From the NCBI GenBank assembly GCA_001564275.1, contig LKND01000005.1, forward strand, positions 1 to 60,835: a DNA stretch of 60,835 nt. Reading direction: 5' to 3'. Positions 4,329 to 20,415 of this stretch are shown here, in pieces. The notes under the pieces are model-generated. The model was not told the origin of the DNA. It saw only the letters and a program-made list of their open reading frames with translations, and ran no database searches. Origin of the DNA: Natrialbaceae archaeon Tc-Br11_E2g14. GTDB taxonomy: Archaea; Halobacteriota; Halobacteria; Halobacteriales; Natrialbaceae. Each line of letters opens with the position of its first letter. Position 1 is the first letter of the stretch. A program made the position numbers and the translations under genes.

Positions 4329-6296
4329 ATGAGTGACGATGTTACTCGAACGGAACCGTACGGGACCTGGCCATCGCCGATTTCCGCCGACGTGGTCGCG
4401 AGCGACGCTCGCACGTTCGGGCACGTCGCAGTCGACGGCGAAGACGTATACTGGCGCGAAGAGCGCCCGACGGAAGACGGCCGCGGCGTTATCGTTCGAC
4501 ACGACGGCGAGGGAATCGAGGACGTCACGCCCGAGGGAGTCGACGTACGCACGCTCGTTCACGAGTACGGCGGCGGCGATTTCACAGTCCACGATGGCAT
4601 CGTGTTCTTCGCGGCGTTCGACGACCAACGCGTCTATCGCCAGCCGCCGGATGGCGACGCGATCGCCATTACGCCCGCACCGGAGAGCGAACGGGGACTG
4701 CGATACGCCGACTTCGAGGTGGCCCCGGACGGTCGCCACATGTACTGCGTCAGGGAGAACCACGACGTGACGACTGACGAGGACGGTACCGAGGAGCCGA
4801 CGAACGCGCTGGTTCGGCTCGCGTCGGACGGAAGCGACGAACCAGAGGTGATCGCATCGGGTCACGACTTCTACGCCGCGCCGCGACTCTCGCCCGATGG
4901 GGGTCGGCTCGCCTGGCTCACGTGGGATCATCCGCGAATGCCCTGGGACGGCACCGAGTTGCACGTCGCCACGGTGACGGACGACGGGACGCTCGCCGAC
5001 GAACGCGTGGTGCTCGGCGGGAACGCGGAGGCCGTCTTTCAGCCGACGTGGGCACCCGACGGCGACCTGTACGTCGCCTCCGATCGGAGCGGCTGGTGGA
5101 ACCTGTATCGCGTTCCCCTCGACGGGAGCGCCCCCGAACCGGTGATCGAACGCGACGCCGAGTACGGAGCTCCGCTCTGGCAGTTCGGGATGGCGACGTT
5201 CGCCGTCCTCGACGACGGAACGATCGTCGCCATTGCCACCGAGGACGGCACGCAACGGGTGGAGCTTCTCGAGGGAGGGGATCGGAAGGTGGCGGATCTC
5301 CCCTTCGAGACCGTCTCCCCCCGCATCAGGTCGAACGGCGAGACGGTGACCCTCGTTGCCGGCGGCCCGCGGACACCCACGAGCGTCGTCCGGTGGACGC
5401 CCGGAGCCGATCCGGAGGTCGTTCGCCGGAGCACGACCCTCGAGGTGGACGACGCGTACCTGGCGACGCCGGAGCACGTCAGCTACGAGACCCGCGACGG
5501 CGAGGTGTCCCACGCGTACGTCTACCCGCCGACGAATCCCGGAGTCGAGGCGCCGGTGGACGAGTGTCCGCCGCTGGTGGTGTTCGCCCACGGCGGACCG
5601 ACCGGCGCGACGACCCCGGCGCTGAATCTGACGATCCAGTACTTCACCTCCCGCGGGTTCGCCGTCGCGGACGTCAACTATCGTGGATCGACGGGATACG
5701 GCCGCGAATATCGGGAGGCACTCTACGGCGAGTGGGGAATCACCGACGTCGAAGACACGGTCGACGCCGCGATCCACCTGGCCGAAACGGGTCGGGCCGA
5801 TCCGGATCGGCTGGCCGTCCGCGGCGGCAGCGCCGGCGGCTTCGTCGTGCTGGCAACGCTCGCGTTTCACGACGCGTTCGACGCCGGAGCCAGTTACTTC
5901 GGCGTCGCGGATCTCGCTCGCCTCGCGGAACTGACGCACAAATTCGAGTCACGCTATCTCGATCAACTGGTCGGCCCGTATCCCGAGGCGGCGGACACCT
6001 ATCGCGAGCGCTCGCCCGTCGAACACGCCGATCGCATCGACGCACCCGTACTCCTGTTGCAGGGCGAGGACGATCCCGTGGTCCCGCTCTCGCAGGCGGA
6101 GGCGATGGTCGACGCGCTCGACGAGAACAACGTCCCGCACTCGTTGCTCGTGTTCGACGACGAGCGCCACGGCTTCCGGCGGGCGGATTCCCGCAAACGT
6201 GCCACAGAATCGGAACTCGCGTTCTACGGTGCGGTGTTCGGATTCGAACCGGCAGACGACCTGCCCCGGATCGATCCAGCGGCGAACGACGCATAG
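4329..6296 (+). CDS. S9-family prolyl oligopeptidase-type serine peptidase
   Basis: This 655-residue protein has an N-terminal seven-bladed beta-propeller (about 1-390) with repeated SPDG/APDG turns. An alpha/beta-hydrolase domain follows (about 390-650). The catalytic triad is visible: Ser501 in RGGSAGGF, Asp582 in GEDDPVVP and His614 in ERHGF. The oxyanion region VVFAHGGPTGAT lies before it. There is no export signal, so it acts in the cytoplasm on short peptides, as acylaminoacyl-peptidase relatives do. It ends 79 bases before the tail of a convergent M42 peptidase and lies 1.8 kb before the peptide transporter, which fits a peptide-degrading neighbourhood. Confidence 0.9.
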   Translation: MSDDVTRTEPYGTWPSPISADVVASDARTFGHVAVDGEDVYWREERPTEDGRGVIVRHDGEGIEDVTPEGVDVRTLVHEYGGGDFTVHDGIVFFAAFDDQRVYRQPPDGDAIAITPAPESERGLRYADFEVAPDGRHMYCVRENHDVTTDEDGTEEPTNALVRLASDGSDEPEVIASGHDFYAAPRLSPDGGRLAWLTWDHPRMPWDGTELHVATVTDDGTLADERVVLGGNAEAVFQPTWAPDGDLYVASDRSGWWNLYRVPLDGSAPEPVIERDAEYGAPLWQFGMATFAVLDDGTIVAIATEDGTQRVELLEGGDRKVADLPFETVSPRIRSNGETVTLVAGGPRTPTSVVRWTPGADPEVVRRSTTLEVDDAYLATPEHVSYETRDGEVSHAYVYPPTNPGVEAPVDECPPLVVFAHGGPTGATTPALNLTIQYFTSRGFAVADVNYRGSTGYGREYREALYGEWGITDVEDTVDAAIHLAETGRADPDRLAVRGGSAGGFVVLATLAFHDAFDAGASYFGVADLARLAELTHKFESRYLDQLVGPYPEAADTYRERSPVEHADRIDAPVLLLQGEDDPVVPLSQAEAMVDALDENNVPHSLLVFDDERHGFRRADSRKRATESELAFYGAVFGFEPADDLPRIDPAANDA

Positions 6297-6375: not shown

Positions 6376-7464
6376 TCACCGACCGCGGACTGCTGTCCGC
6401 GCTGGAAACTGCGACTCGAGGGCCGTCCGCAGGACGTCGACCGTCGCTTCCGCGTCGGTGAGATCGATCGTCTCGACGGGTGAGTGGGTGTATCGACAGG
6501 GGACCGCAATTGCGCCGGCGTGGCGCCCACCGCCGATAGATTGAAATTCGGTGGCATCGGTCGTTCCACCGATCATGACGTCGTGCTGGACCGTGACGCC
6601 TGCAGTCTCGCCTGCCTGCGTGAGCCACGTCAGTGTCTGTCGGTCGACGAGGACCCCACCGAAAAGGTACTCCGAGGTTCCATCGGCGAGTTCGACGACC
6701 GGGCCATCGCCCAGTGCGACGGTACTCGATCGATCGCCGTCGATGGGATAATCGTCGGTCGGGTAAATCTCCAGGGCGATGGCGACATCGGGATCGACAT
6801 CGTACGCTGTTGCTCGGGCACCCCGGAGTCCGACCTCTTCCTGAACGGTTGCCACATAGTGAACCGTTCGGTCGGTCGTCGTCTCGCGCGCGACGGCGAG
6901 AAGAGCGGCGAGGGCAATTCGATCGTCGAGGGCCCGTCCGGCTAAACGATTGTTCGCGAGGTCGGTGAGTTCGCGATCCCAGGTCGCGTGATCACCGGGC
7001 TCGACGTTCAGGTCGGCAACCGCCGATGCGTCTCCTGCGCCGAGATCGATGTGGAGGGTGTCCGGCAGCCCGTCTTTTTCCTCGTCACTCATGAAGTGTC
7101 GGGGCTTCGCTCCAATGACTCCGGGAACCCCGTCGGGCCCGACGCGAACGTGCTGGCCGAGAAGATAGCCTCGGTAGTGTCCACCGAGCATGCTAAACGT
7201 ACAGAGTCCGTCGTCGGTGATCCCATCGATCAGCAACGCGAGCTCGTCGGTGTGGGCCGCGAGCATCACGTCCATATCGGTTTCATCCCCATCACTGTCT
7301 CGCTCGCCGTAGGCTGTTGCGATCACGTTTCCCATCGCATCCCAGCGAACCTCGTCGACGTGAGGTTCGATCAGGTCCTCGAAGACGCGAGCAACGTGGT
7401 ACTCCCCACCCGGACCACCCCGGGCGTCGACGAGTCGATCCAGTTCGTTCCGGTCGAGTGCCAT
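6376..7464 (-). CDS. M42-family metallo-aminopeptidase
   Basis: This 362-residue protein has the M42 (glutamyl aminopeptidase/endoglucanase-M-like) metal-site motifs in order. They are AHTDE (His71, Asp73), GRALDDRIAL (bridging Asp), QEEVGLRG (catalytic and ligand Glu), EIYPTDD and RYTHSPVE near the C-terminus. M42 enzymes form dodecameric tetrahedral particles that trim N-terminal residues from oligopeptides in the cytoplasm. I chose the ATG at 7464 because the homologous sequence begins there; the open frame upstream is extra. Its neighbours are an S9 peptidase and a peptide-uptake operon. Confidence 0.92.
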   Translation of the reverse strand: MALDRNELDRLVDARGGPGGEYHVARVFEDLIEPHVDEVRWDAMGNVIATAYGERDSDGDETDMDVMLAAHTDELALLIDGITDDGLCTFSMLGGHYRGYLLGQHVRVGPDGVPGVIGAKPRHFMSDEEKDGLPDTLHIDLGAGDASAVADLNVEPGDHATWDRELTDLANNRLAGRALDDRIALAALLAVARETTTDRTVHYVATVQEEVGLRGARATAYDVDPDVAIALEIYPTDDYPIDGDRSSTVALGDGPVVELADGTSEYLFGGVLVDRQTLTWLTQAGETAGVTVQHDVMIGGTTDATEFQSIGGGRHAGAIAVPCRYTHSPVETIDLTDAEATVDVLRTALESQFPARTAVRGR

Positions 7465-7615
7465 GCAGGATCGGTCGAACGACTGGAAGGTAGTACTTCC
7501 GGCGGCCGGCCGATTCCGACGCGCCGAAAAACCCAAACCAGGATCGTTCCTCCGGTAGATCGTTCGGTGACGGGAGAGAATAGCCCCCGCACAGTTCTCA
7601 GCAAGGTACTCGAGG

Positions 7616-8062
7616 GTGATAGCCGTCCAGGGCGTCGAGTCGGCATCGCCGGCTCTCGATTGCCAACGAGGCTCTCTTGTCGGCTCCTTTCGTCTTCGAT
7701 CGAGGCCCCAGAGACAATCGTCGTCGGGCAACCAACCCTGTTTTTTAGGTGAAAAATCGAGTCCCAGGAGCCGCACTCTCGAGTGTCCCTCGAGTCGTTC
7801 GTGGGGGTGGACGATCAATGGAGTTCCCGAGGCTGGTGTGGAGCGGCTCGAACCACCGTCCGAGCCGGCGACAGTCGCCTTCGGGCCACGGGAGCGGCGA
7901 ACCTTCGCCGGTTGGTGGGACGGCCAGTTTTTTGACATCCATGATGGACGCGAACGGTGGGTGCCGGCGCACGGGACCCACACGCTCACGGCGTACCTCG
8001 CGGTCGATGAACCGAACGAGCGCGTTCTAACAGTGTCGGTCGGCCTCACGGTTCGGGGCTAG
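7616..8062 (+). pseudogene. Fragment resembling a BsuPI-like beta domain
   Basis: Only the last 85 or so codons of this frame look like protein: RERRTFAGWWDGQFFD, then GTHTLTAYLAVDEP and VLTVSVGLTVRG. That layout resembles the end of BsuPI/CARDB-like immunoglobulin-type domains found in exported haloarchaeal proteins. The upstream codons are poor in acidic residues and have no start context, so this is likely a gene remnant. The rest of 7465-8127 holds nothing else I can recognise. The identification is weak. Confidence 0.3.
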
Positions 8063-8070
8063 TATACTAG
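8059..8070. promoter_or_regulatory. Perfect palindrome CTAGTATACTAG before the transporter operon
   Basis: This 12-bp perfect palindrome lies 58 bases before the ATG of the peptide-binding protein. It is just upstream of an AT-rich stretch (GGATATTTG, about 8076-8084) that could be the TATA box. Its place suggests a regulator binding site, but no protein can be assigned. Confidence 0.4.
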
Positions 8071-8127
8071 GAGACGGATATTTGCCCCTCGTGTGGGAGT
8101 CCAACTCATACCACAAGGTTAGTTTCC

Positions 8128-9801
8128 ATGACCGACAACCTCAATCAATCGCACCTGGACCGACGGCGGTTCGTCAAGTCGATGGCAGCCGCTGGGAGTG
8201 TAGGACTGTTCGCTGGCTGTGTTGGGAGTGACCCGGAAGAGAGTGAGGACGGTGGCGTCTTCGTGATCGCGACTACCGACGAGGTCGAAACGTTCGACCC
8301 ACGTCAGAATCAGCTTGCGTGGTACAGCTCTGCTGCACACTACCTGTTCGATTCGTTACTCCTCCAGTCGCCCGACGGAAGCGAGTTCGAACCCCACCTC
8401 GCCGTCGATCACCCGGAAGAAATCGACGAGACGACGTACGTGGTCGAGATCCGTGACGACGTGGAGTTCCACGACGACTGGGGCCAACTCACGGCCGAAG
8501 ACGTCGAATACTCCATCAACTGGGTGCTCGACCCCGACAACGCGTCGCCGAATCAGTCGAACGTCGCCTACATCGACGAGGCTGAAGCGACCGGTGAGTT
8601 CGAGGTCACGCTCCACCTGGAGTATCCGTCCGGATTGATGGATCGATCGCTCGCGCACATGAACGCCGCCCCCATCGTCTGCAAGGAGGCCGCAGAGGAA
8701 ATGGGTGATGAAGAGTTCGGTCAAAATCCGGTGGGTAGTGGCCCGTTCAAACTCGAGAACCACGACCCCTCGTCGTCGGTCGAGCTGGTCGCAAATGCGG
8801 ATTACTTCCTCGGTGAGCCCATCCTCGAGGGACTCGAATATCGGATTATCCCGGAGGCCGAGGTTGGGTACGTCAATCTCGCACAGGGCGACCTCCATCA
8901 GTCGGGGGTCACCGAAGAGTTGCTCGGTGAGGCCGAGGAGGACGACGACATCGATACTTATCAGCTATCTAACATGGACTTCCAGGGGTTCATCTTGAAC
9001 TCCCTGGAAGGGCCATTTACTGACGTCAGAGCACGGGAAGCCGTCCATCACCTCATCGACTACGACGAGGTTCTCGACGCCGCTGCCGGTAGTCTCGCTG
9101 GGCGAAACTGGGGCCACATGCCACAGGAAACCGTCGATGCGTGGGACTTCCCTGCTGACGAGTGGGAAGAGAATTACTACCCAGAACAGGATCACGACCG
9201 CGCGGTCGAATTGTTCGAGGAAGCCGGCGTGGGTACCGACTTCGAAGTGGACCTCGTGATGACCGCCGGTGAGGCGAACGAAGGGCGGTCACTCGTCCTC
9301 CAGAACGAGTTCGAGGAAGTCGGAATCGACTGTGATATCCGTGAAATTTCGACTGGTGACTGGCTCGAGGCTCTCAACCAGGCGGACTACGACATCACCA
9401 CCTACGGCTGGGGTGGCAACGACGACCCGGACGGCTATTACTATCACATGTTTCGGGACCTGCAAAACGACGAGGGCGGGATGGACGACGACGTCGTCGG
9501 CCACTCTTCGATCGGCTACCTCTACGAGGGCAGCCGTGAGCGCGGCGACGATGACGTCCTCGAGGACTTGGATCGTCTCGACGATCTCGTCCGCGAGGCC
9601 CAAGCGACCGTCGCTCAGGAAGAACGCCGCGAGTACTACGTCGAGGCAGCTGAAATCGTCCTCTCGCTGTACCCGGTCATCGGGGTTTACTCCGCCGAGA
9701 GCGTGACGGGCGTACACACGAACGTCCAGAACTACGAGCCGAGTGAGTTCGGCGAGCAGGAGGCGTTCAACCACTGGCAAGAGGCCAGTATCGACGAATA
9801 A
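8128..9801 (+). CDS. Peptide ABC transporter substrate-binding lipoprotein
   Basis: This 557-residue family-5 extracellular solute-binding protein (DppA/OppA type) would capture peptides outside the membrane. The leader has a twin-arginine motif (DRRRFVKS, residues 11-18) and a lipobox FAGC (Cys31), so it is probably Tat-exported and lipid-anchored. Family signatures include the VETFDPRQN start of the mature fold, FEPHLAVDHPEEID, and the repeated hydrophobic core strands to FNHWQ. It is the first gene of a five-gene transporter operon, followed 41 bases later by the first permease. Ligand choice cannot be read directly; context suggests cell-wall peptides. Confidence 0.93.
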   Translation: MTDNLNQSHLDRRRFVKSMAAAGSVGLFAGCVGSDPEESEDGGVFVIATTDEVETFDPRQNQLAWYSSAAHYLFDSLLLQSPDGSEFEPHLAVDHPEEIDETTYVVEIRDDVEFHDDWGQLTAEDVEYSINWVLDPDNASPNQSNVAYIDEAEATGEFEVTLHLEYPSGLMDRSLAHMNAAPIVCKEAAEEMGDEEFGQNPVGSGPFKLENHDPSSSVELVANADYFLGEPILEGLEYRIIPEAEVGYVNLAQGDLHQSGVTEELLGEAEEDDDIDTYQLSNMDFQGFILNSLEGPFTDVRAREAVHHLIDYDEVLDAAAGSLAGRNWGHMPQETVDAWDFPADEWEENYYPEQDHDRAVELFEEAGVGTDFEVDLVMTAGEANEGRSLVLQNEFEEVGIDCDIREISTGDWLEALNQADYDITTYGWGGNDDPDGYYYHMFRDLQNDEGGMDDDVVGHSSIGYLYEGSRERGDDDVLEDLDRLDDLVREAQATVAQEERREYYVEAAEIVLSLYPVIGVYSAESVTGVHTNVQNYEPSEFGEQEAFNHWQEASIDE

Positions 9802-9842
9802 GCGGTTTCGCTCTCTCATAGCTTTCAGCATTATTCACACGA

Positions 9843-10793
9843 ATGGGACTCTTACGGTACACGATACGACGGTTGCTTCAGCTCATCCCGGTGTTGTTCG
9901 GTATCGTGACGCTGACGTTCGTCATGATGCATGCGTTGCCTGGTGACCCGGTTCGACTCTGGCTTGGGACCGAGCCGGGTCAGGAACTCGCTGACGAGCT
10001 GATCGAGGCCCACGGCTTCGACCGACCGATGCACGAGCAGTACGTCGATTACCTCGTTCGCCTCGCACAGGGTGACCTCGGCCATTCGTTCGTCTACAAC
10101 CGGCCGGTTGTCGACCTGATGTGGGAGCGTATGGAGCCAACACTGGTCGTGATGGGGCTCTCGTATCTCGTTGCGTTGCCGGTGGCCCTCGGACTCGGCA
10201 TCTACGGGGCGGCGCGGCACAATCGCGCTGGCGACCACGTCTCGCGCTTCGCCGGTCTCGCCGGAATATCGACGCCGAACTTCTGGCTCGCACTGATGAT
10301 GATCTATATGTTCTCGTACAATTTCGGGCTATTGCCGGCAACCGGCTACACCTCTCCCTTCGTCGATCCAGTCGAAGCCGCGGTCCTGCTGATCATGCCG
10401 GTCCTCACGCTTGCCACTGCCCAGACAGCACTGTTGATGCGGATGACTCGGTCCAGCATGATCGAAGAAATGCGCGAAGACTACGTCGAGACTGCTCGAG
10501 CGTATGGGATCCCCGAGCGGAAGATCCTCTTGCGACACTCGTTTCGAAACGCGCTGTTGCCACTGGTGACGATCGTTGGCTTGCAGGTGTCGACCCTGCT
10601 CGGTGGGAGTGTTATCGTCGAAGAGATTTTCGCGATCCCGGGACTGGGACGGCTCTTTTTCGATTCGGTGATCGAACAGGACTACTCGGTTGCAGTCGGT
10701 GTCACCCTGTTCTTTTCGACGCTGTTTCTCATCGGGGTCGTCCTCACCGACATCGCGTATGCGTATATCGATCCACGTATCAAATATGACTGA
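9843..10793 (+). CDS. Peptide ABC transporter permease (DppB type)
   Basis: This 316-residue membrane protein has about six transmembrane segments. Its N-terminus is typical of DppB (RYTIRRLLQLIPVLFGI). The ABC-interaction (EAA) loop ARAYGIPERKILLRHSFRNA lies around residues 218-238, and a standard VEEIFAIPGLG stretch follows. It pairs with the next gene to form the pore. It lies 45 bases before that permease and shares its direction. Confidence 0.95.
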   Translation: MGLLRYTIRRLLQLIPVLFGIVTLTFVMMHALPGDPVRLWLGTEPGQELADELIEAHGFDRPMHEQYVDYLVRLAQGDLGHSFVYNRPVVDLMWERMEPTLVVMGLSYLVALPVALGLGIYGAARHNRAGDHVSRFAGLAGISTPNFWLALMMIYMFSYNFGLLPATGYTSPFVDPVEAAVLLIMPVLTLATAQTALLMRMTRSSMIEEMREDYVETARAYGIPERKILLRHSFRNALLPLVTIVGLQVSTLLGGSVIVEEIFAIPGLGRLFFDSVIEQDYSVAVGVTLFFSTLFLIGVVLTDIAYAYIDPRIKYD

Positions 10794-10838
10794 GACACAG
10801 ACACACAGCGCCGAGATGGCACGGAATGGTGATGGCCA

Positions 10839-11894
10839 ATGAGTGGTGAAGGGGTTCCAGCCAACGATGCCGAATTCCACGACGAGGGGGGCGTCCTCGA
10901 GACGCTCACCAAACTCAGGCACAGCCCGACATCGCTCGCCGGGCTCCTGATTATATTTGCTCTGGTCCTCATGGCCCTGTTCAGCGCGGTCGACAACTTC
11001 GTTTTTGACCGGGCGATAATCACGTGGCTCCACGCTGATCCCCACGCGATGGATCAGAGCATGCGCTACGATGACCCCTCCTGGGAACACCCGATGGGTA
11101 CTGACCGATACGGTCGGGATATGCTCTCGCGAGTGATCTATGGTAGCCGAACCGCACTGACCATCGGTATCGTGGCCGTTGGAATCAGTTTCGTCGGCGG
11201 GGTAATCATCGGCGCAGTGTCCGCGTTCTTCGGTGGCTACGTCGACGACTTCTTGATGCGTAGCGTGGAGATCCTCTACGCGATTCCGGGGCTCGTGCTC
11301 GCGATCATTTTCATGGCTATTTTTGGACCGAGCATCTACAATCTCTTCATCGCGTATGGCATCGTCGGCATTCCGGCCTACGCCCGGGTGATGCGATCGG
11401 AAGCCCTCTCGATACGGGATCGCCAGTACGTTGAGGCCGCAAAGCTCGCTGGCTTGCCCCGCCGAACGATCCTCTTTAGAGAGATCGTTCCCAACGGCAT
11501 CGCCCCGGTGGTCGTTCAGGCAACGCTCTCGATGGGCGGCGTTATCATCGGGGCAGCGGCCCTCTCGTTTCTCGGGTTCGGCGTGCAGCCGCCGACACCC
11601 GATTGGGGGCGAATGCTCAGTGACGGACGAACCGCGATGGTCGTCGCCTGGTGGGTTGCTGTCTTTCCCGGCATCATGATATTCATCACCGTCATGGGGT
11701 TCAATATGCTCGGTGACGGCCTCCGTGACGTCATGGATCCAAAGATGACGGTCGAAGCGACACCGTACGACGACTGGAACATAGACGAGTGGAAAGAAAA
11801 ACAACGTGCAGCGACCACGGAATCCGACCTCGCGCCCGATACGCCGACGACCCGGGCCGATGGCTCCGGGCCGCAAGAGGGTGATCGATCGTGA
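10839..11894 (+). CDS. Peptide ABC transporter permease (DppC type)
   Basis: This 351-residue permease starts with a soluble acidic segment and then the DppC-type membrane domain (HPMGTDRYGRDMLSRVIYGSR). The EAA loop VEAAKLAGLPRRTILF lies near residue 200. The C-terminal tail of about 50 residues is hydrophilic (KEKQRAATTESD). Its stop overlaps the GTG start of the first ATPase, so the two are translationally coupled. Confidence 0.95.
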   Translation: MSGEGVPANDAEFHDEGGVLETLTKLRHSPTSLAGLLIIFALVLMALFSAVDNFVFDRAIITWLHADPHAMDQSMRYDDPSWEHPMGTDRYGRDMLSRVIYGSRTALTIGIVAVGISFVGGVIIGAVSAFFGGYVDDFLMRSVEILYAIPGLVLAIIFMAIFGPSIYNLFIAYGIVGIPAYARVMRSEALSIRDRQYVEAAKLAGLPRRTILFREIVPNGIAPVVVQATLSMGGVIIGAAALSFLGFGVQPPTPDWGRMLSDGRTAMVVAWWVAVFPGIMIFITVMGFNMLGDGLRDVMDPKMTVEATPYDDWNIDEWKEKQRAATTESDLAPDTPTTRADGSGPQEGDRS

Positions 11895-12910
11895 GCCTCC
11901 TCGAGGTCGAGAATCTCCGTACGTACTTCTTTACGCCTGCTGGAATCGTGCAAGCCGTCGACGGTGTCAGCTTCGAGGTCGATGCTGGCGAGTCACTCGG
12001 CATCGTGGGCGAAAGCGGGGCCGGGAAAAGCGTAGCCGTCAAGAGTATCATGGGCCTCATCCGCGATCCCGGTCGGATCGTCGAGGGCAGTGTTCGATTC
12101 GACGGCCGGGAGTTGACCGAACTCAGTGAGGCCGAACTCAGACGGGAGATACGTGGCAACGAGATCTCGATCGTCTTCCAGGACGCGATGTCCGCGCTCA
12201 ACCCCGTCTTCACCGTCGGCAGCCAGCTCGAGGAAGTGATCGTCGAGAACACCGACCGCTCGCCTTCTGCGGCTCGCGAGCGAGCGATCGAACTCCTCGA
12301 CGACGTCGGAATCCCCAACCCCGACCGACGCATCGACGAGTATCCACACCAGTACTCCGGGGGAATGCAACAGCGGGCAATGATCGCGATGGCACTTGCC
12401 TGTGACCCGAGACTCATTATCGCCGACGAGCCCACGACCGCCCTTGACGTGACCATCCAGGCCGGGATTCTCGAGCTGTTCGACGAGATTCAGGAGACCC
12501 ACGACACGAGTATCGTCTACGTTACCCATGACCTTGGGGTCGTCCGCGAGGTCTGTGATCGCGTCAGCGTCATGTACCTCGGCCGCGTCGTCGAGTCGGC
12601 TCCGTACGAAGAACTGTACCGATATCCAAAACACCCCTACACGCAGTCGCTGCTCAACTCGGTGGTGACCCCTGATGAAATCCTAGACGAGATCAATCCC
12701 ATCGGCGGAACGATGCCGTCAGCGGTATCGCCACCGTCGGGATGTCGCTTCCGGACGCGGTGTCCCGAGGCAGTCGAGGAGTGTGTCCACGTCACCCCAC
12801 GAGCACGACAAGTCGGCGATTCACATACCGCAGCATGTCTGCTCTACGATGAGTCGAACTCCCACGAAGAACCGACGCTCCGCGAGATCACTAATCAGAC
12901 CAATGACTGA
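11891..12910 (+). CDS. Peptide ABC transporter ATP-binding protein (DppD type)
   Basis: A GTG start at 11891 overlaps the previous stop by four bases. The 339-residue product has Walker A GESGAGKS (about residues 39-46), signature YSGGMQQR, Walker B LIIADEPTTALD and a switch His in VTHDLGVV. The C-terminal oligopeptide-transporter motif CRFRTRCP, with further Cys near AACLL, is present. It powers uptake together with the next ATPase. Confidence 0.95.
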   Translation: MSLLEVENLRTYFFTPAGIVQAVDGVSFEVDAGESLGIVGESGAGKSVAVKSIMGLIRDPGRIVEGSVRFDGRELTELSEAELRREIRGNEISIVFQDAMSALNPVFTVGSQLEEVIVENTDRSPSAARERAIELLDDVGIPNPDRRIDEYPHQYSGGMQQRAMIAMALACDPRLIIADEPTTALDVTIQAGILELFDEIQETHDTSIVYVTHDLGVVREVCDRVSVMYLGRVVESAPYEELYRYPKHPYTQSLLNSVVTPDEILDEINPIGGTMPSAVSPPSGCRFRTRCPEAVEECVHVTPRARQVGDSHTAACLLYDESNSHEEPTLREITNQTND

Positions 12911-13003
12911 CCCCAGATCGAACGACAGTACAGCCGTTAACGTGAGGAGGACCCGACACGAACACTCGAGCGTGAGTACGCCAGGATGGGGGTTGAAGTG
13001 ATC

Positions 13004-14326
13004 ATGAGCGCTGGTAGTCAGCAGACTGGTGACACCGCCGATGCGGCCGGCCAACCGCTTCTCGAGGTATCGGGCCTGAAAAAACACTTCCCGGTCAATT
13101 CGGGATTGTTCGCCTCGATTACGTTCGACCGCGACGCCGACGGCTTTCCGATCACCAGGGACGACTCGAGCGTCAAAGCCGTTGATGGCGTCGATTTTGC
13201 GCTCGAGGCAGGGAAGACCCTCGGTGTGGTTGGCGAGTCCGGCTGTGGCAAGTCGACGCTTGCTCGAACGATTCTGGGACTCGAGGAACCAACCGCGGGC
13301 GAGATCCGTTTCGACGGACGCCCGAAAGACGAGATCCCGGAAGCCGAGTTCCGCAAACGGAGTCAGATGGTTTTTCAGGACCCACAGTCGAGCCTGAACG
13401 GCCGGAGGCGGGTCGGTCACATCATCGAAGATCCGCTCGAGGGTGCGGGCTGGGAGAAAGCGCGTCGCCGCGAGCGGGCGCTGGAATTGCTCGAACAGGT
13501 CGGTCTCAAACGGGAGTACTACAACCGCTATCCTCACGAGTTCTCGGGGGGGCAGCGCCAGCGGATCAATCTGGCCCGGGCGCTGTCGATCAGCCCGGAT
13601 CTCATCGTCTGTGACGAGCCAGTGAGTGGCCTCGACGTGAGTATCCAGGCGCAGATTCTCAATCTGATGACCGATTTGCAAGCTGAGTACGGGCTCACCT
13701 ACCTCGTGATCTCTCACGATCTCAGCGTCGTCCGGTACATCGCCGATCGTGTCGCCGTGATGTATCTCGGCGAATTCGTCGAGGTTGCACCGACCGACCG
13801 ACTGTTCACTCACCAGTATCACCCCTACGCACGGGCACTCTTGAGTGCCGTGCCGAACCCCGACCCCGATATGCCGGGGGTCTCGTCTCAGCTCAGTGGT
13901 GCTGTTCCGAGCGCGTCGAATCCCCCACGCGGTTGTCGGTTCCACACGCGCTGCCCCTCCTTCATCATCCCCGACGGATTCACGGCCGAGGCGTACGACG
14001 GCTATGATCGACTCCGGTCGGACGTCAGTGAACGCAGCCTCGATCCCGAGGTGAACGACGTCAGTAGCGCCCTCGAGACCTACGTACCCGAGTTGGCTAG
14101 CGTTGCTGGGGACCGCAGGGCAGCACTCGAGTCGGCTGTCAGCGAGGCCCTCGACGGCGAGTGGGATCGGGCAGAACGAACACTCGAGAGCGAGCAATCG
14201 CCGTGTCAGGCAGAGGCGCCGTCACTCGAGACGGCCGGTGATCCGGCACACGAGGCCGCCTGTCACCTCTCGTTCGAAACACCGAGTGATGCCGATAGCG
14301 GGTCAACGGAGGATGGCCGACGATGA
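13004..14326 (+). CDS. Peptide ABC transporter ATP-binding protein (DppF type)
   Basis: This 440-residue ATPase has Walker A GESGCGKS, signature FSGGQRQR and Walker [13 protein letters not shown]. It is about 100 residues longer than most DppF proteins. The extra length lies in the C-terminal region, between CRFHTRCP and the final AACHLSFE, where a mostly acidic, helix-rich insert of about 90 residues sits. I chose the ATG at 13004 over the in-frame ATG at 12986, since the homologous part begins soon after. The end overlaps the start of the carboxypeptidase gene (ATGA), tying uptake and cell-wall peptide cleavage into one operon. Confidence 0.92.
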
Positions 14327-15657
14327 CCGCGAACGCGAGGCGTGAGGAAGCCTCGCCCCTTGGTATCGAACAGTTCACAACAAGCGTTTATGCAAAGGAC
14401 CTGGACACTGGCGAGACGTTACTTGCAGCCGATCCGGACGTACCGCTGCTCCCGGCGTCCAACACGAAGCTGGTGACGGCGGCACGCGCGTTCGCAGACC
14501 TCGGGCCGACCTATCGCTTCGAGACGACCGTCCACGCCAACGGTGAGTTCCACGGGACTCAGTTGGTCGGCGATCTCGTATTGACCGGACGAGGGGCCCC
14601 GGATCTCTCACAGGCCGATCTACTGACTCTCGCTTCGGAGGTTGCTGCCAACGGAATCGAGACCGTCGCCGGTGAACTCGTTATTGATGCGTCGGCGTTC
14701 GATGCTGAGTCGCTCGGCCCTGGCTGGACGTGGGACGATGGTCAGTTCGAGTACGGGGCGAAGAGTACGCCACTGGCGGTCGAACGAAACACCGTCGACA
14801 TCACGATCGCTCATGCCGATGGCTCGATCCGTGTCGACGCGTCACCAACATCCGAGATCGTCCGGTTCGACATCGATGTCGAAACGGGCCAAACTGCGGA
14901 TCTCGACGTCTACAAGAAACGCGCCTCGGAAGTGATTCGCGTCGAAGGGCAGGTACCAGCCGAGGAGACGACGATCGAGGCGAGCCCCGTAGACGATCCG
15001 ATGATGCACGCAGCGAGCCTCTTTCGAGACGCCCTCGAGGCCCACGACGTCACTCTCGACGGCTGGATCCGCATCGAGGGCGAGGCTGTCGAGACGTTCA
15101 ACCCTCCGTGTGCGGTGGTGGAATCCGCCCCGCTTTCGGAGATCACACGGGACATGTGCTGGCACTCGGACAACTTCGCTGCCGAACAACTCGCCAGAAC
15201 AATCGCCCTCGAACGGGACGGTCAGGGCTCTTGGCCGGCGTGGGAACGATATGCGATGGCGTTTCTCGAGGAACGAGGGGCCGATGCGGTTCGACTCCGT
15301 GACGGATCTGGCCTCTCACGATACAACCTCCTGTCTGCAACGAGTATCGTTTCGGTACTCGAGTGGTGTCTCGAGCAGCCCTGGAGTGAGGCGTACCGTC
15401 GGTCGCTTCCCAGGACGGGTCTCGAGGGCACGGTCTCGAGTCGACTCGAGGGGGTTGAGCCCACTGTCCGGGCGAAAACGGGGACACTCACCGGTGCACG
15501 GGCACTGTCGGGATACGTCGAGAACGATGATTCTGAGCCTGTCGTCGGGTTTTCGTGTCTCTTCTCCAATCTCACTGGGGAATACGAGCGATCAGCGACC
15601 GACCACATCGACGACGTCGTCCGAGAGATCATCTCACGGGCGCCCCTCGAAAGCTGA
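14323..15657 (+). CDS. dacB: S13 D-alanyl-D-alanine carboxypeptidase/endopeptidase
   Basis: This 444-residue penicillin-binding-protein-4-like enzyme would remove terminal D-Ala, or cut D-Ala crosslinks, in peptidoglycan peptides. All three active-site motifs are intact: Ser46-x-x-Lys49 (PASNTKL), Ser282-Asp-Asn284 (HSDNFAAEQL) and Lys385-Thr-Gly387 (AKTGTLTGA). Bacterial DacB is exported, but this protein starts [14 protein letters not shown] with no signal sequence, no twin-arginine motif and no membrane segment. It should therefore work in the cytoplasm. Its ATG overlaps the stop of the ATPase gene, so it is made with the transporter. Haloarchaea have no murein, so the substrate is presumably imported. 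Confidence 0.92.
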   Translation: MTANARREEASPLGIEQFTTSVYAKDLDTGETLLAADPDVPLLPASNTKLVTAARAFADLGPTYRFETTVHANGEFHGTQLVGDLVLTGRGAPDLSQADLLTLASEVAANGIETVAGELVIDASAFDAESLGPGWTWDDGQFEYGAKSTPLAVERNTVDITIAHADGSIRVDASPTSEIVRFDIDVETGQTADLDVYKKRASEVIRVEGQVPAEETTIEASPVDDPMMHAASLFRDALEAHDVTLDGWIRIEGEAVETFNPPCAVVESAPLSEITRDMCWHSDNFAAEQLARTIALERDGQGSWPAWERYAMAFLEERGADAVRLRDGSGLSRYNLLSATSIVSVLEWCLEQPWSEAYRRSLPRTGLEGTVSSRLEGVEPTVRAKTGTLTGARALSGYVENDDSEPVVGFSCLFSNLTGEYERSATDHIDDVVREIISRAPLES

Positions 15658-15686
15658 TGCACCTCGTGAGTCCCGCCTCGGGGCAG

Positions 15687-16391
15687 TTAGTGAGACGTCG
15701 GGTCGACGCCTTGCCGCTCACGCTCACGGATCGTCCCAAGCAGTCGGCTGAGTGCAACGGCTTCGCCTTTCCGGAGGTGTTCGAGCGCTGTCGGTCCGGA
15801 TACGTCGTGGTTCTCGGCGAGTTGTTTCGCCGATATGTCCCGGGGCCAGCCGTAATACCCCTCTTCGAACGCCGAAAGCAGATAGGTCAGCTGGCGGGAC
15901 GAGAGGTCATCACAGATCTCGTCGACGATATCGTGAGTGGCGGCGGTGTCGGGCTCGTAGTCGACGACACGACGTACGTCGACGTCGGCGACCTCCTCGA
16001 GATCCGCGATCGAGCGACTGATCGTGGAGCCGTCTGCGAGTAAGGTCCACCGTTCACAGTCATCGGTGATCCGAACCTCTCCGATTGGTGTCAGCGAGGA
16101 GGCCACCATCTCCGCATAGATCGAAGCCTCTGCAGCGTACCGGATGTGAATCCTGAGATATTCGGTCCTGGCCTCGAGGAGGTCCGTCGACCTGACCGTC
16201 GGGAACGCTCTCGCAGTTCCGAGTATCTCCTCGGCATCGAGGTCGTCGCCGCTGATAATGATGGTCGCGAGGATGTCGGTGCCGTCCGAACAGATATCGG
16301 TTATGACGAGCTCGATCTCGGGCCGTTCACGAGTGAGTTTCAGCATCCAACATCCTTCGTGCCACAGCGACAGGTCGATCCGTTTTTTCAT
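15687..16391 (-). CDS. HTH-10 (Bat-type) transcriptional regulator
   Basis: This 234-residue protein has a C-terminal HTH-10 domain (about 170-225: LSSRQLTYLLSAFEEGYYGWPRDISAKQLAE, then a recognition helix GPTALEHLRKGE). A mixed alpha/beta N-terminal domain may sense a ligand. It runs convergent to dacB and divergent from the decarboxylase-like gene, in the middle of the proposed muropeptide cluster. It is the natural candidate for its local regulator. No target site is proven. Confidence 0.85.
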   Translation of the reverse strand: MKKRIDLSLWHEGCWMLKLTRERPEIELVITDICSDGTDILATIIISGDDLDAEEILGTARAFPTVRSTDLLEARTEYLRIHIRYAAEASIYAEMVASSLTPIGEVRITDDCERWTLLADGSTISRSIADLEEVADVDVRRVVDYEPDTAATHDIVDEICDDLSSRQLTYLLSAFEEGYYGWPRDISAKQLAENHDVSGPTALEHLRKGEAVALSRLLGTIRERERQGVDPTSH

Positions 16392-16782
16392 ACCTTATCC
16401 GATCTTTGCCTGACAATGTTATACAATGTACTTATAATTTTGCACGAGTGACAGCGTATCGGATTGGTTCGGATGGAATCGGTCCGCCTACACACCCCCA
16501 GTGAGCGGGAGCTTACACCGCATCCGTCGACGTTCTATACGAACGCCCGGGACGATCTTGAGCCGTTTCTAGAGGGCCTAAGCGGAAATGTTGTACCGAG
16601 AGGTCGGCACTGGCCGGCAGGTGACGAAAACGAGCCCCATCAGCGGCAAGCTTGAGACTGTGGCCTCTCGAAACGCCAACGCGGTTCTCTCGTTTGATTC
16701 CGTTTTTGAACAGGCCCACCGAGACCGGCATCTAGTATGCGAGGGGGACGTGCTTTCCCTCCCCCACTCGTCTTTACGTCCA
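16392..16782. promoter_or_regulatory. Divergent control region with tandem ACAATGT repeats
   Basis: This 391-base spacer separates the HTH-10 gene from the decarboxylase-like gene. Two copies of ACAATGT at 16413-16419 and 16423-16429 repeat at exactly 10 bases, one DNA turn. They lie next to the TATA-like TTATAATTT (about 16432-16440), which would serve the leftward regulator gene. This is a plausible operator for autoregulation. An open reading frame runs through 16588-16782 ahead of the decarboxylase, but its composition is unlike the gene and I treat it as leader. Confidence 0.4.
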
Positions 16783-18048
16783 ATGGAACTACAGGCACGG
16801 AGGGATCGCCTCCTCGAAATCGAATCCGAGGTCCTCTCTCCGTACGGGACGCCGGTCTATGTCTTCTTCGAGGAGGACATCAGGGAGAACTATCGAACGC
16901 TGCGAACAGCCCTCGACGAGCAGTATCCGGACTCGGTGATTCACTTCGCGGTGAAGGCAAACTACAACCCAGGGATCCTCTCAGTGCTCCGGGATGAGGG
17001 TTGTCACGCCGAAGCCTACGCCACCGGCGAGCTGTCGGCTGCACTCGAGGCTGGCTACAGCCCGCAGGAGTTGCTGTTGACGGGAATGAATCGCCGACTC
17101 TCGGACGTCGAGCAGGCCCTCGAGACCGGCGTCGAGCACTTTCTCGTCGACAACGCGACTGAGCTCGAACGGTTGATCGTCGCCGCCGACGAAACGGAAG
17201 CGCAACCGAAGGTTCTCATCCGGGGGAACCCCTCAATGGAGGTCCCGACCCATCCCGAAGTCGCGACAGCGACCCGGGAGTCGAAGTTCGGGCTCGACAT
17301 CGAATCCGGGCGAGCCATGGCCGTCGCCGAGCGTACGGCGTCGGCGTCGGCAGTCGAACTCGCGGGCGTTCAGTTGCATATCGGCAGCCAAATCAACGGC
17401 GTCGAACCGTACGGCACTGCCGCCCGCGAGTTGCTCGGGTTCGCAGCCGACATCCGGGACGAACTCGGTATCGAAATCGACATCCTGGATCTTGGAGGGG
17501 GGTTCCCGGTTCCGTACGACGGTCCCGTCCCGGACACCGAAGCCATCGTCACGGAAATCTCGAGGACGGTTCGCGAAACTGCCAATACGCTCGATCTCCC
17601 GCTCCCGACACTCTTTCTCGAGCCCGGTCGCCGGCTGGTCGGCAACGCCGGGACCCTGGTGACGACCGTCGGTGTGATCAAGCAGACCCCGCACACGTCG
17701 TTTGCGGTGCTCGATGCCGGGACCAACGCAGTCTCGTCGTACTGGCCGTACCCGATGTTTGCACTGACGGACGGTAAAGCGACCGAACACTACGACGTCG
17801 CCGGACCACTCTGTTACACCGGTGACGTACTCGCAGCGGACGTCGAGTTGCCGCCCCTTGAGGCAGGGGCGCTCCTCGCGATCGATCGGATTGGAGCCTA
17901 CTCACTCGGCAGTGCCTCACATACGAACGCTCAGCCAAAACCGCCGGTGTTGCTCTGTCGGTCTGACGGTGACGTCACCGTGATCCGCCGGCCCGAAACG
18001 CCCACCGACGTGTTCGCCAACGCGGAGGTGCCCGATGACCTCCGTTGA
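16783..18048 (+). CDS. Diaminopimelate-decarboxylase-like PLP enzyme
   Basis: This 421-residue fold-III PLP decarboxylase is closest in layout to LysA. It has the PLP lysine (Lys58 in HFAVKANYNP), HIGSQI, the glycine-rich phosphate loop LGGGFP and EPGRRLVGNAG. LysA would turn meso-diaminopimelate into lysine. However, the second-half signature that normally reads CESxD is LCYTGDVLA here. The usual GAYG...NYN...P region reads GAYSLGSASHTNAQPKP. Substrate-contact residues therefore differ, and another D- or diamino acid is possible. I chose the ATG at 16783, where homology begins. It overlaps the next gene by 14 bases. Confidence 0.82.
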   Translation: MELQARRDRLLEIESEVLSPYGTPVYVFFEEDIRENYRTLRTALDEQYPDSVIHFAVKANYNPGILSVLRDEGCHAEAYATGELSAALEAGYSPQELLLTGMNRRLSDVEQALETGVEHFLVDNATELERLIVAADETEAQPKVLIRGNPSMEVPTHPEVATATRESKFGLDIESGRAMAVAERTASASAVELAGVQLHIGSQINGVEPYGTAARELLGFAADIRDELGIEIDILDLGGGFPVPYDGPVPDTEAIVTEISRTVRETANTLDLPLPTLFLEPGRRLVGNAGTLVTTVGVIKQTPHTSFAVLDAGTNAVSSYWPYPMFALTDGKATEHYDVAGPLCYTGDVLAADVELPPLEAGALLAIDRIGAYSLGSASHTNAQPKPPVLLCRSDGDVTVIRRPETPTDVFANAEVPDDLR

Positions 18049-19072
18049 GGAACTAACCGTGCAGCGACTACAAACCCTCCTCGCACCCGACGACCGGGTT
18101 GCCTGCTTCGAGGTTAGCGTCGAGCGAACCGACCGGCACCATAATCAGCGTCCGCCGATCGCGCTCACTGGAACCGTCCAGACGGACCGGATCAGGGGGG
18201 CAATCCTCGAGGAGTTACAGCGGCTGTACGGCGACCTCGACGTTCGGGACAACCTCTCTGTCCTCGAGGGAGCCGGCAACGCACTGACGACCGATCGACA
18301 CGTTCTCCCGATCCGTGGCGAACCACGTGCAGACGCCGAGCAGGTCACACAGGTGCTGTACGGCGCCGCGCTCACGGCCTACGATACACAGGAGGGGTGG
18401 CGTCGGGTCCGAACGCCCAGTGGCTACCTTGGCTGGACCGACGGTGAGGCACTGACGGAACCGGTATGTAATGGGACGGCCGCCGGGGACGCCTCGGCGG
18501 CGACCCCTGCCGAGTGGGCCCCAGACGCTGTCGTGGTGGCGGCTCAGGCCCCGATCACTCGATCGGAGATGGCTCACGAGACCGTCCCGGCCGGTGTCGA
18601 CTGCTGCGTTGAGGCCCGCGACGGTGACGCGGTGCGCATCTCGTTCAGGAATGGAACTCGAGCGACAGTACCGGTAGCGACCGTCAGGGAGACATCGACA
18701 CCGACGAGCAAAGACGAGGTCGTCACTGTCGCCAGACAGTTCCTGCAAACGCCCTACGAGTGGGGTGGGATGACCGCAGATGGCATCGACTGCTCGGGAC
18801 TGGTCTGGATCGCCTACACGGCCCTCGGCGTCACGCTCCCGCGGGATGCAGACCAGCAGCGTGCACTCGGTACCCCCGTCTCGCGGAAGGAGCTCGAGGC
18901 AGGGGACCTCCTCTTTTTCCCGGGTCACGTCGCGATCAGTCTCGGCGGATCCGAGTACATCCACGCCTCTGGTAGCGCAGATGCCGTCACGGTCAACAGC
19001 CTCGATCCGGACGACGAACGCTACGTCGAGGGTCTCGATGCGGACCTCTCAGCGATGAAGCGGTTGTTGTAA
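18035..19072 (+). CDS. NlpC/P60 peptidase with SH3-like region (YkfC-like)
   Basis: This 345-residue protein has a C-terminal NlpC/P60 domain (about 228-345). The triad residues are Cys253 (GIDCSGLVW), His298 (PGHVAISLG) and His310 (IHASG). The preceding part (about 80-215) looks like one or two SH3-type modules (YDTQEGWRRVRTPSGYLGWTDG), the layout of bacterial YkfC. YkfC cleaves gamma-D-Glu-diaminopimelate bonds in stem peptides carrying free N-terminal L-Ala. There is no signal peptide. The gene overlaps the decarboxylase by 14 bases, implying joint translation. Exact bond specificity is inferred. Confidence 0.88.
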   Translation: MTSVEELTVQRLQTLLAPDDRVACFEVSVERTDRHHNQRPPIALTGTVQTDRIRGAILEELQRLYGDLDVRDNLSVLEGAGNALTTDRHVLPIRGEPRADAEQVTQVLYGAALTAYDTQEGWRRVRTPSGYLGWTDGEALTEPVCNGTAAGDASAATPAEWAPDAVVVAAQAPITRSEMAHETVPAGVDCCVEARDGDAVRISFRNGTRATVPVATVRETSTPTSKDEVVTVARQFLQTPYEWGGMTADGIDCSGLVWIAYTALGVTLPRDADQQRALGTPVSRKELEAGDLLFFPGHVAISLGGSEYIHASGSADAVTVNSLDPDDERYVEGLDADLSAMKRLL

Positions 19073-19338
19073 CGTCACACCAGGCCGCTGCGCCTCGGCG
19101 GACAGACCAGGCTCACTCGAGCATGGCGACACCCCACTCTCGTGGAACGGGAGAGCTCGCCAGTCAGCGCCCATGCCTTCGGACGAGTCGGATTATCCAT
19201 CCGGAACGTGGCAATGGGGTTCGGGATTCACGCATGATTGGGCATCCATTGATAAGCATTCGATCGAAAGCCCCCGACCGTGTCCACTCACAACTCGTAT
19301 ACAAACGTCCACTGGCACAACCCGAGGTGCCACGCTGG

Positions 19339-20415
19339 ATGATTGTCGACCGTGTCGACGTCTTCGGGCTCGATCTTCCGCTCACCGACCCGTTCGAAAT
19401 TTCACTGGGTACGAAACACGAGGCGGCGAACGTACTCGTCAGGCTCGAAACCGAGACGGGAACCGTCGGCTACGGCGAGGCGGCACCACTCGAGACGATC
19501 GTCGGTGAGACCCAAGCGAGTGCCATCGCACAGGCCGAGGCGGGTGCAGCGTTGCTCGAGGGTCGAAACGTTGTCGATAGACGGCGCCTCGTCGCCGATC
19601 TGCGGGCGGCACTTCCAGGCGCTGTCTCGGCGATATTCGCCCTCGAAACGGCGCTCTACGACGCCTACTGTCGTGAAGAGGGGCTCGCCCTGGCAGCGTG
19701 TTTCGGTGGCACACCCGGGCCCGTGACGACCGATCTCACGATCGGGATGGTCGACCCCGAAACCGCGGTGACCGAGGCCGAGGCTGCACTCGAGGACGGA
19801 TTCGACCAACTCAAAGTGAAGGTGGGCGGGGACCTCGAGTCCGACCTCAAGCGGGTCGCAGCCGTCAGCGATGTCGCCCCCGACACCGGCCTAACGGTCG
19901 ACGCAAATCAGGGCTGGACCCCGAAGCAGGCCATCCAGTTCGCAACCCGAGCGCGGTCGCGTGACCTCCATCTCGACCTGCTCGAACAGCCCGTCCGACT
20001 GGACGACGTCGCGGGACTGAAGCGGGTGACCCAGGCGGTCGAGGTTCCCGTTGGGGCAGACGAGTCCGTCTTCAGCATCGAGGATGCGTTGCGCGTCGCC
20101 AGCGAAGGAGCTGCGGATGTCATCAACATCAAAGCCGCAAAGTCGGGACTCGCCGACAGCGTGGCCATCGCTGAAATTGCTCGAGCAGCAAACCTCGAGG
20201 TAATGATCGGGTGTATGCTCGAGAGCGCCATCGGGCTACACGCGAGTGCCCATCTGGTGTCAGGACTCGGCGGCTTTTCCCACGTCGATCTTGACGGCAA
20301 CTTCTCGTTTGAACGACAGGTGTCCGACGTCGAGGTGGGCCCGACGCTCGAAACCAGCGGGCCCGGACACGGTATCGTGCCCGACCCAGCCCTGGTTCCG
20401 GACCGACTGGGGTGA
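19339..20415 (+). CDS. Dipeptide epimerase (L-Ala-D/L-Glu epimerase type)
   Basis: This 358-residue enolase-superfamily enzyme has the acid/base lysines Lys159-x-Lys161 (LKVKVG) and Lys265 (NIKAAKSG). The Mg2+ ligands are Asp188 (VDANQ), Glu216 (EQP) and Asp241 (ADES). Residues Asp317-x-Asp319 (DLDGNF) are the pair that holds the dipeptide amino group in Ala-Glu epimerases. Spacing closely follows Bacillus subtilis YkfB. It would convert L-Ala-D-Glu from murein to L-Ala-L-Glu, which ordinary peptidases can split. I chose the ATG at 19339, where homology starts. It follows the NlpC/P60 gene by 266 bases. Confidence 0.92.
   Translation: MIVDRVDVFGLDLPLTDPFEISLGTKHEAANVLVRLETETGTVGYGEAAPLETIVGETQASAIAQAEAGAALLEGRNVVDRRRLVADLRAALPGAVSAIFALETALYDAYCREEGLALAACFGGTPGPVTTDLTIGMVDPETAVTEAEAALEDGFDQLKVKVGGDLESDLKRVAAVSDVAPDTGLTVDANQGWTPKQAIQFATRARSRDLHLDLLEQPVRLDDVAGLKRVTQAVEVPVGADESVFSIEDALRVASEGAADVINIKAAKSGLADSVAIAEIARAANLEVMIGCMLESAIGLHASAHLVSGLGGFSHVDLDGNFSFERQVSDVEVGPTLETSGPGHGIVPDPALVPDRLG

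Follow-up and report, generated by a model that had tools for sequence, protein, structure and literature searches.

A gene cluster of a haloarchaeon that probably serves the uptake and breakdown of bacterial murein stem peptides

The window, as we call the whole stretch of DNA analysed, is a contig of 60,835 bases (LKND01000005.1) from Natrialbaceae archaeon Tc-Br11_E2g14, whose genome assembly comprises 3.16 Mb in 136 contigs and is 91% complete. It carries a cluster of ten genes, which encode a five-gene ATP-binding cassette (ABC) importer of the peptide type, an S13 peptidase, a regulator, a pyridoxal phosphate (PLP) decarboxylase, an NlpC/P60 peptidase and an enolase-superfamily epimerase. 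A first-pass annotation had proposed that they import and break down peptidoglycan peptides. The archaeon is a halophile and lacks a cell wall of the bacterial kind. Pfam and NCBIfam scans recovered all ten genes at the coordinates of Table 1. The identities given to them held; two details did not, as the regulator lies on the opposite strand and the gene described as diaminopimelate (DAP)-decarboxylase-like belongs to a divergent subfamily. The overlap of importer and S13 peptidase was also found: the S13 open reading frame (ORF) overlaps dppF by 4 nt. The NlpC/P60 ORF overlaps the decarboxylase gene by 14 nt. With an epimerase start at 19339, a gap of 266 bases follows the NlpC/P60 gene; in the relatives L030 and L031 these two genes overlap by 4 nt. 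Below, handles beginning with L and G denote loci and genomes.

Table 1. Genes of the cluster and two neighbouring peptidase genes (feature, positions in the window, strand, basis or remark).
SBP_bac_5 peptide-binding protein of ABC importer	8128-9801	+	Pfam 220 bits; twin-arginine translocation (Tat) motif DRRRFVK and lipobox LFAGC read from sequence
Permease, DppB/OppB type, BPD_transp_1	9843-10793	+	Pfam/NCBIfam
Permease, DppC/OppC type, BPD_transp_1	10839-11894	+	Pfam/NCBIfam
ATPase, DppD/OppD type, ABC_tran and oligo_HPY	11891-12910	+	Pfam/NCBIfam
ATPase, DppF/OppF type, ABC_tran and oligo_HPY	12986-14326	+	Pfam/NCBIfam
Peptidase_S13, PBP4-type D-Ala-D-Ala peptidase	14323-15657	+	Pfam 290.6 bits; TIGR00666 232.7 bits, cut-off 107.8
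HTH_10 (bat-type) regulator	15687-16391	-	Pfam
Fold-III PLP decarboxylase, divergent DAP-decarboxylase subfamily	16786-18048 (ORF from 16588)	+	homologues align from about 16786
YkfC-type peptidase: BON-like N-domain, SH3_16/SH3b, NlpC/P60	18035-19072	+	Pfam, profile, fold
MR_MLE enolase-superfamily, dipeptide-epimerase-like enzyme with DxD	19339-20415 (ORF from 19123)	+	homologues align from about 19339
M42 aminopeptidase, possible associate, divergent from the cluster	6376-8049	-	membership inferred from position only
S9-family peptidase, possible associate	4329-6296	+	homologues also in L036 and L048

By sequence, profile and fold, the NlpC/P60 protein bears the hallmarks of a YkfC-type peptidase, as had been claimed. 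The hallmarks given for this subfamily in the accessible part of PMC2954226 include Asp256, which lies in a PRD[S/A] segment and contacts the free amine of L-Ala, and a conserved Tyr118 in the SH3b domain. Mapped on BcYkfC by alignment, Asp256 corresponds to D271 of the window protein, which is invariant among 24 aligned haloarchaeal proteins (24 of 26 rows; the broken L053 and L033, which is close to L031 and L032, were left out). Tyr118 corresponds to the invariant Y131, which aligns to chain residue 96 of 3h41; an offset of 22, counted by hand, makes this residue Tyr118 and also places Cys238. The catalytic Cys238, His291 and His303 (C253, H298 and H310) are invariant in the same 24 proteins, and so are Tyr226, Trp228, Asp237, Ser239 and Arg255 (Y241, W243, D252, S254 and R270). 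The position of Ser257 has Ala, as is stated for dipeptidyl peptidase VI (DPP VI) in the accessible part of PMC2954226. A PDB search with a profile of the 24 proteins had DPP VI (7e-37) and YkfC (6.5e-29) as its two best matches. The structure model (predicted local distance difference test, pLDDT, 88.9) had DPP VI (E ~1e-19) and YkfC 3h41 (1e-16) as its top Foldseek matches, and SH3_16, the SH3 domain of dipeptidyl peptidases, was present in 24 of 24 proteins. Residues 1-80 (18035-18274) are BON-like, with an alpha-beta-beta-alpha-beta order in the model; Pfam BON matched five of the 24 proteins, and an OsmY profile matched with an E value of 9e-4. This domain is an addition not mentioned in the accessible part of the YkfC account in PMC2954226. 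Quick trees, with support from the SH-like approximate likelihood ratio test (SH-aLRT) only, were built for this protein and the epimerase. In the former, the window protein and 19 named haloarchaeal proteins stood on one side of a branch and 60 bacterial proteins on the other (SH-aLRT 98).

We surveyed an even set of 371 Halobacteria genomes, using Fisher tests of co-occurrence that ignore kinship beyond a genus-level table. The NlpC/P60 protein was found in 26 genomes (15 of 83 genera), with one match each, one of them broken. All 14 genomes with an S13 peptidase were among these 26 (p = 1e-18), as were 9 of 9 S13 genera among the NlpC genera (p = 1.5e-8). The decarboxylase subfamily (E below 1e-80) occurred in 16 genomes, 14 of them within the 26; the two outside (G298 and G300) have copies that are 44-45% identical. 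Within the 26 genomes, S13 and decarboxylase tracked each other (13 genomes with both, p = 2e-5). An M55 D-aminopeptidase was present in 29 genomes, 14 of which belong to the NlpC set (p = 5e-11). The grouping of the cluster genes is not chance. Carriers of the NlpC gene include Natronorubrum texcoconense (L147), Natrialba hulunbeirensis (L148), Haladaptatus (L152) and Halorussus (L159), and also Haloprofundus, Halolamina and Halocatena.

The genes are also co-located, so the check that the first-pass annotation had called for did not refute its proposal: among 25 NlpC neighbourhoods, most of the window's set recurred in eight (L031, L032, L033, L035, L037, L044, L046 and L048) and part of it in five (L030, L036, L038, L039 and L043). 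In two of the 25 genomes the remaining genes lie on a different contig, in the order M55-decarboxylase-regulator-S13-SBP-B-C-D-F-DUF1611-epimerase (L231) or Beta-lactamase2-decarboxylase-SBP-B-C-D-F-S13 (L232). Near-full clusters were observed in four families (f1, f4, f6 and f8). Importer, YkfC-type peptidase and epimerase stood together in the window and in L031, L032, L033, L035, L037 and L046, the importer being partial in L033 and L037. Homologues of the regulator, 65% identical, occupied the equivalent place in L031, L032, L033, L037 and L046. The M55 gene lay in five of the 25 neighbourhoods and beside S13 or decarboxylase in three more genomes; that of the window genome is on another contig (G000:C40:21231-22019), with no other cluster homologue within 20 kb. 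In the 26 NlpC genomes, the only ones searched for it, all 11 strong Beta-lactamase2 matches were within 4.3 kb of the NlpC or decarboxylase gene, and the window genome had no match. Downstream of its epimerase the window has a phosphoenolpyruvate (PEP)-synthase/PPDK-type gene. In the Natrialba and Natronorubrum loci (L031, L032, L033 and L037) the epimerase is instead followed by a beta-lactamase-fold protein (PF00144) and, further on, Amidohydro_3.

The S13 protein has the motifs SNTK (SxxK), SDN (SxN) and KTG and passes the TIGR00666 cut-off. Of the 14 genomes with S13, 10 have an S13 gene adjoining dppF. A simple hydropathy scan, not a dedicated signal predictor, found no signal-like hydrophobic N-terminus in the window's S13, decarboxylase, NlpC/P60 and epimerase proteins, so breakdown would be expected in the cytosol; the window S13 is probably cytosolic. 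For B. subtilis YkfC, action in the cytosol is argued in the accessible part of PMC2954226. Among cluster-type S13 copies, 10 of 11 had no hydrophobic start and the start of L063 was unclear, with the partial matches L075-L079 left out of the count. A second S13 type carries a Tat motif and was found in ten haloarchaeal genomes (L064, L065 and L067-L074). It is probably secreted and could be an extracellular source of peptides. The window genome has the signal-less copy only, and no intact signal-less copy was found in G209 and G073. The importer genes fell below every NCBIfam equivalog cut-off, so no transport substrate could be read from their sequences. The GC content of the transporter part (8001-14000) was 0.59-0.61, and that of many other window blocks 0.63-0.66.

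The decarboxylase passes the LysA model TIGR01048 (318.7 bits against a cut-off of 297.9), and the best fold matches of its model (pLDDT 75.5) were the DAP decarboxylases 1tuf and 1twi. According to the accessible part of PMC8277567, in the DAP decarboxylase TmDAPDC the distal carboxylate is bound by Arg249 and Arg285 and the distal amine by Glu315, whose replacement lowers DAP activity. We placed these residues on the segments EPGR, RPAMY and CES by residue spacing in an M. jannaschii alignment, counted by hand. In the copies of 14 of 14 genomes, EPGR (Arg249) was kept, Arg285 (RPALY) was replaced by Ser with a neighbouring four-residue deletion, and Glu315 (CES) was replaced by Tyr. One decarboxylase row, L042, was a canonical LysA paralogue. 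The window genome has a separate second LysA (L003), which is canonical. Because two distal ligands are lost and a canonical LysA exists elsewhere in the genome, the use of free DAP, a step of the proposed pathway, is not supported, and free-DAP decarboxylation is no longer the leading role for this enzyme. The binding site has probably been rebuilt for another substrate. As the changed loops (312-322 and 340-346) had pLDDT values below 50, the model was not used to describe a pocket.

BtrK and N-citrylornithine decarboxylase, which act on acylated substrates, were among the fold-relative matches listed. Considering these relatives and the changed distal site, a new enzyme step may be imagined, which we regard as quite unlikely: the decarboxylase would act on meso-DAP before its release from the stem peptide. 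In the peptide, gamma-Glu occupies the distal amine and D-Ala the distal carboxylate, leaving the D-centre free, and this would account for the loss of Glu315 and Arg285. A peptide-bound substrate would also explain why the gene tracks S13 across their 13 shared genomes, and DAP-type peptides would then become Lys-type before cleavage by YkfC. The other carboxylate ligand, Arg249, is kept, which calls for caution about this idea. The bacterial loci L190 and L195 have a canonical LysA near NlpC; therefore, a decarboxylase is part of the same theme, though the distal site of the haloarchaeal enzyme has changed. PF01425 amidases lie close to the decarboxylase gene in two loci (L030:12306-14138 and L037:13865-15379) and could deamidate amidated stem peptides.

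We consider it likely, with a probability of about 0.72, that the cluster serves to scavenge murein stem peptides shed by bacteria and to break them down in the cytosol. Read from sequence, this theme is strongly supported by the co-occurrence of the genes and by the YkfC hallmarks. The transporter substrate, the sequence of reactions, all catalytic activities and the use as nutrition are inferred, as follows. A Tat-exported lipoprotein would capture peptides carrying L-Ala-gamma-D-Glu-(meso-DAP or Lys), and DppBCDF would import them whole. In the cytosol, S13 would cut D,D bonds, at D-Ala-D-Ala ends and in cross-links. The YkfC-type peptidase, which would require a free N-terminal L-Ala, would cut gamma-D-Glu from the diamino acid, releasing an Ala-Glu dipeptide whose D-Glu centre the epimerase would then invert to the L form. 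Ordinary peptidases would finish the breakdown. The PLP decarboxylase would attack the D-amino centre of some intermediate of this pathway, which is probably not free DAP.

An import-and-breakdown set for peptides with D-residues, as suggested by the first-pass annotation, fits both the gene set and its recurrence, and its stepwise pathway needs two corrections, for the decarboxylase and the removal of D-Ala, and one caution, for the epimerase. S13 enzymes cut D,D bonds, so D-Ala removal holds for these bonds only. In a tetrapeptide D-Ala is attached through an L,D bond, and a further enzyme would be required to remove it.

Several observations weigh against murein-peptide scavenging. No L,D-carboxypeptidase was found among the cluster genes scanned (no genome-wide search was made). 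Two of the three distal DAP ligands are gone from the haloarchaeal decarboxylase, and with them the fit to free DAP. The importer family serves many substrates. Of the 25 NlpC neighbourhoods, six had only weak matches to the set (L029, L034, L040, L042, L049 and L050) and six had none (L041, L045, L047, L051, L052 and the broken L053). The distribution is patchy: NlpC was present in two of seven sampled genomes of the window's genus, and the other of the two (G045) has decarboxylase, NlpC and epimerase in a row and no S13 match. M23 and PG_binding_1 had no match in the window genome at its 91% completeness, so other organisms would have to supply the peptides. Across the 26 NlpC genomes, the only ones searched, M23 matched in 14 and PG_binding_1 in five, which implies no enrichment. 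Finally, relatives of the epimerase (E<=1e-40) occur in at least 226 of the 371 genomes, so enzymes of this type are not restricted to NlpC genomes; Arg24 of YkfB, presumably a ligand of the Glu side chain, is not kept in the window epimerase, which has Gly at the aligned place; and the sister clade of this epimerase is paired with DUF1611, as described below.

The epimerase also bears on the first of three other explanations, general nutrition on D-amino acids and their peptides, in which it would be a DgcA-like N-acyl-D-Glu racemase instead of an Ala-Glu epimerase. Catabolism of D-Glu by DgcN-DgcA has reportedly been published for haloarchaea. The window epimerase has the KxK and metal-ligand segments and a C-terminal DxD (DLD), which we take to have a role in dipeptide epimerases. 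It reached neither the dipeptide-epimerase cut-off NF041118 (269 against 500 bits) nor the DgcA cut-off NF042940 (171 against 400 bits). NCBIfam was rejected as a judge between the two types, as its scores did not separate them in nine proteins. Alignment A3 comprised nine of ten rows, the reference L157 being too short. In the tree, a seven-member clade (SH-aLRT 100) united the window epimerase with six others that are 70-73% identical. All seven genes are close to NlpC: six adjoin it, and that of L046 is at a distance of about 2.4 kb. None of these stretches contains DUF1611. The sister clade (25 rows, support 89; both clades together 97) is DUF1611-paired in 24, namely 23 of 23 loci L104-L126 and L048, the NlpC-linked L039 being the exception. 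The epimerases of other NlpC neighbourhoods (L035, L038 and L164) fell outside both clades; rows L029 and L040 were distant paralogues without DLD, and the true L046 copy is L100. DUF1611 is present in 26 of 26 NlpC genomes, which suits nutrition on D-residues; however, the only DUF1611 match of the window genome is on contig 55, with an epimerase homologue of its own beside it. Besides the DUF1611 of all 26 genomes, some haloarchaea have a second, lower-scoring pair of DUF1611 and epimerase (L104-L126). S13 and a YkfC-type peptidase that needs a free L-Ala-gamma-D-Glu end point to murein peptides, so we regard general D-residue nutrition as rather unlikely. Ala-Glu epimerisation, as proposed at first, is plausible and appears the likeliest role of the epimerase, with the caution that YkfB Arg24 is missing and NCBIfam cannot tell it from the DgcA type.

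It could also be argued that the enzymes are directed against live bacteria, in the manner of the bacteria-killing archaeal peptidoglycan hydrolases described in the accessible part of PMC12352652, and the Tat-motif S13 copies of ten related genomes would suit such a function. However, the window's S13, NlpC, decarboxylase and epimerase have no signal-like N-terminus, and an importer and a decarboxylase are ill-suited to a weapon, which makes defence or antagonism very improbable. Breakdown of haloarchaeal poly-gamma-glutamate, for example of Natrialba (which two reviews of this polymer are said to mention), with NlpC/P60 as a gamma-glutamyl hydrolase, a reaction that some NlpC/P60 enzymes perform, was rejected as barely credible, because the synthesis protein CapC occurs in only 6 of the 26 NlpC genomes and not in that of the window, and because it leaves no role for S13 or for the L-Ala-binding Asp/Tyr pair.

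As to whether archaea feed on the wall material of bacteria, the accessible part of PMC12352652 (2025) leaves killing and scavenging by archaeal peptidoglycan hydrolases undecided. Under murein-peptide scavenging, the cluster would name an importer, four enzymes and their carriers, and would add a conserved decarboxylase with an apparently rebuilt substrate site. No archaeal murein-peptide pathway turned up in the literature searched, mostly outside subscription journals; as far as this literature shows, the cluster, if the reading is true, would be the first route by which an archaeon consumes peptides of bacterial walls.

With the dpp and ykfABCD genes of B. subtilis, as presented in the accessible part of PMC2954226, the cluster shares a Dpp importer, a signal-less YkfC-type NlpC/P60 peptidase and an enolase-superfamily epimerase. 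It differs in having no YkfA among its genes, a signal-less S13 coupled to dppF, a divergent decarboxylase, a BON-like domain on NlpC and an archaeal HTH_10 regulator. DppA of B. subtilis is presumably an M55 enzyme (the M55 rings of that bacterium); an M55 counterpart is present in 14 of the 26 related haloarchaea, in the window genome on another contig. Among 61 bacterial loci found through NlpC, 15 had epimerase, Dpp-type B/C/D/F and NlpC together; since the transporter family of B to F is widespread, these loci have the same kinds of parts, which does not amount to orthology. Clostridial clusters of epimerase, Dpp and NlpC (for example L174, L178, L182, L196 and L206) are alike in component types and often include Beta-lactamase2 or M55; however, matched stretches are 23-53% identical, and none of the 15 loci has an S13 or decarboxylase match. 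Zixibacteria RBG_16_53_22 (L195) resembles the window in having S13, LysA, NlpC and epimerase in one locus, but its LysA is canonical (CENSD, RPALY) and no Dpp match lies within 20 kb. The haloarchaeal pairs of DUF1611 and enolase-superfamily enzyme (DgcN-DgcA type) share a related epimerase and the D-Glu theme, although they form a separate clade and, in the window genome, a separate locus. Fidelibacter, reportedly a muropeptide-scavenging bacterium that lives on the wall fragments of others, differs in being a bacterium and in also building its own wall from the fragments. By this comparison, the haloarchaeal cluster is best called an archaeal variant of the dpp-ykf-like genes of B. subtilis.

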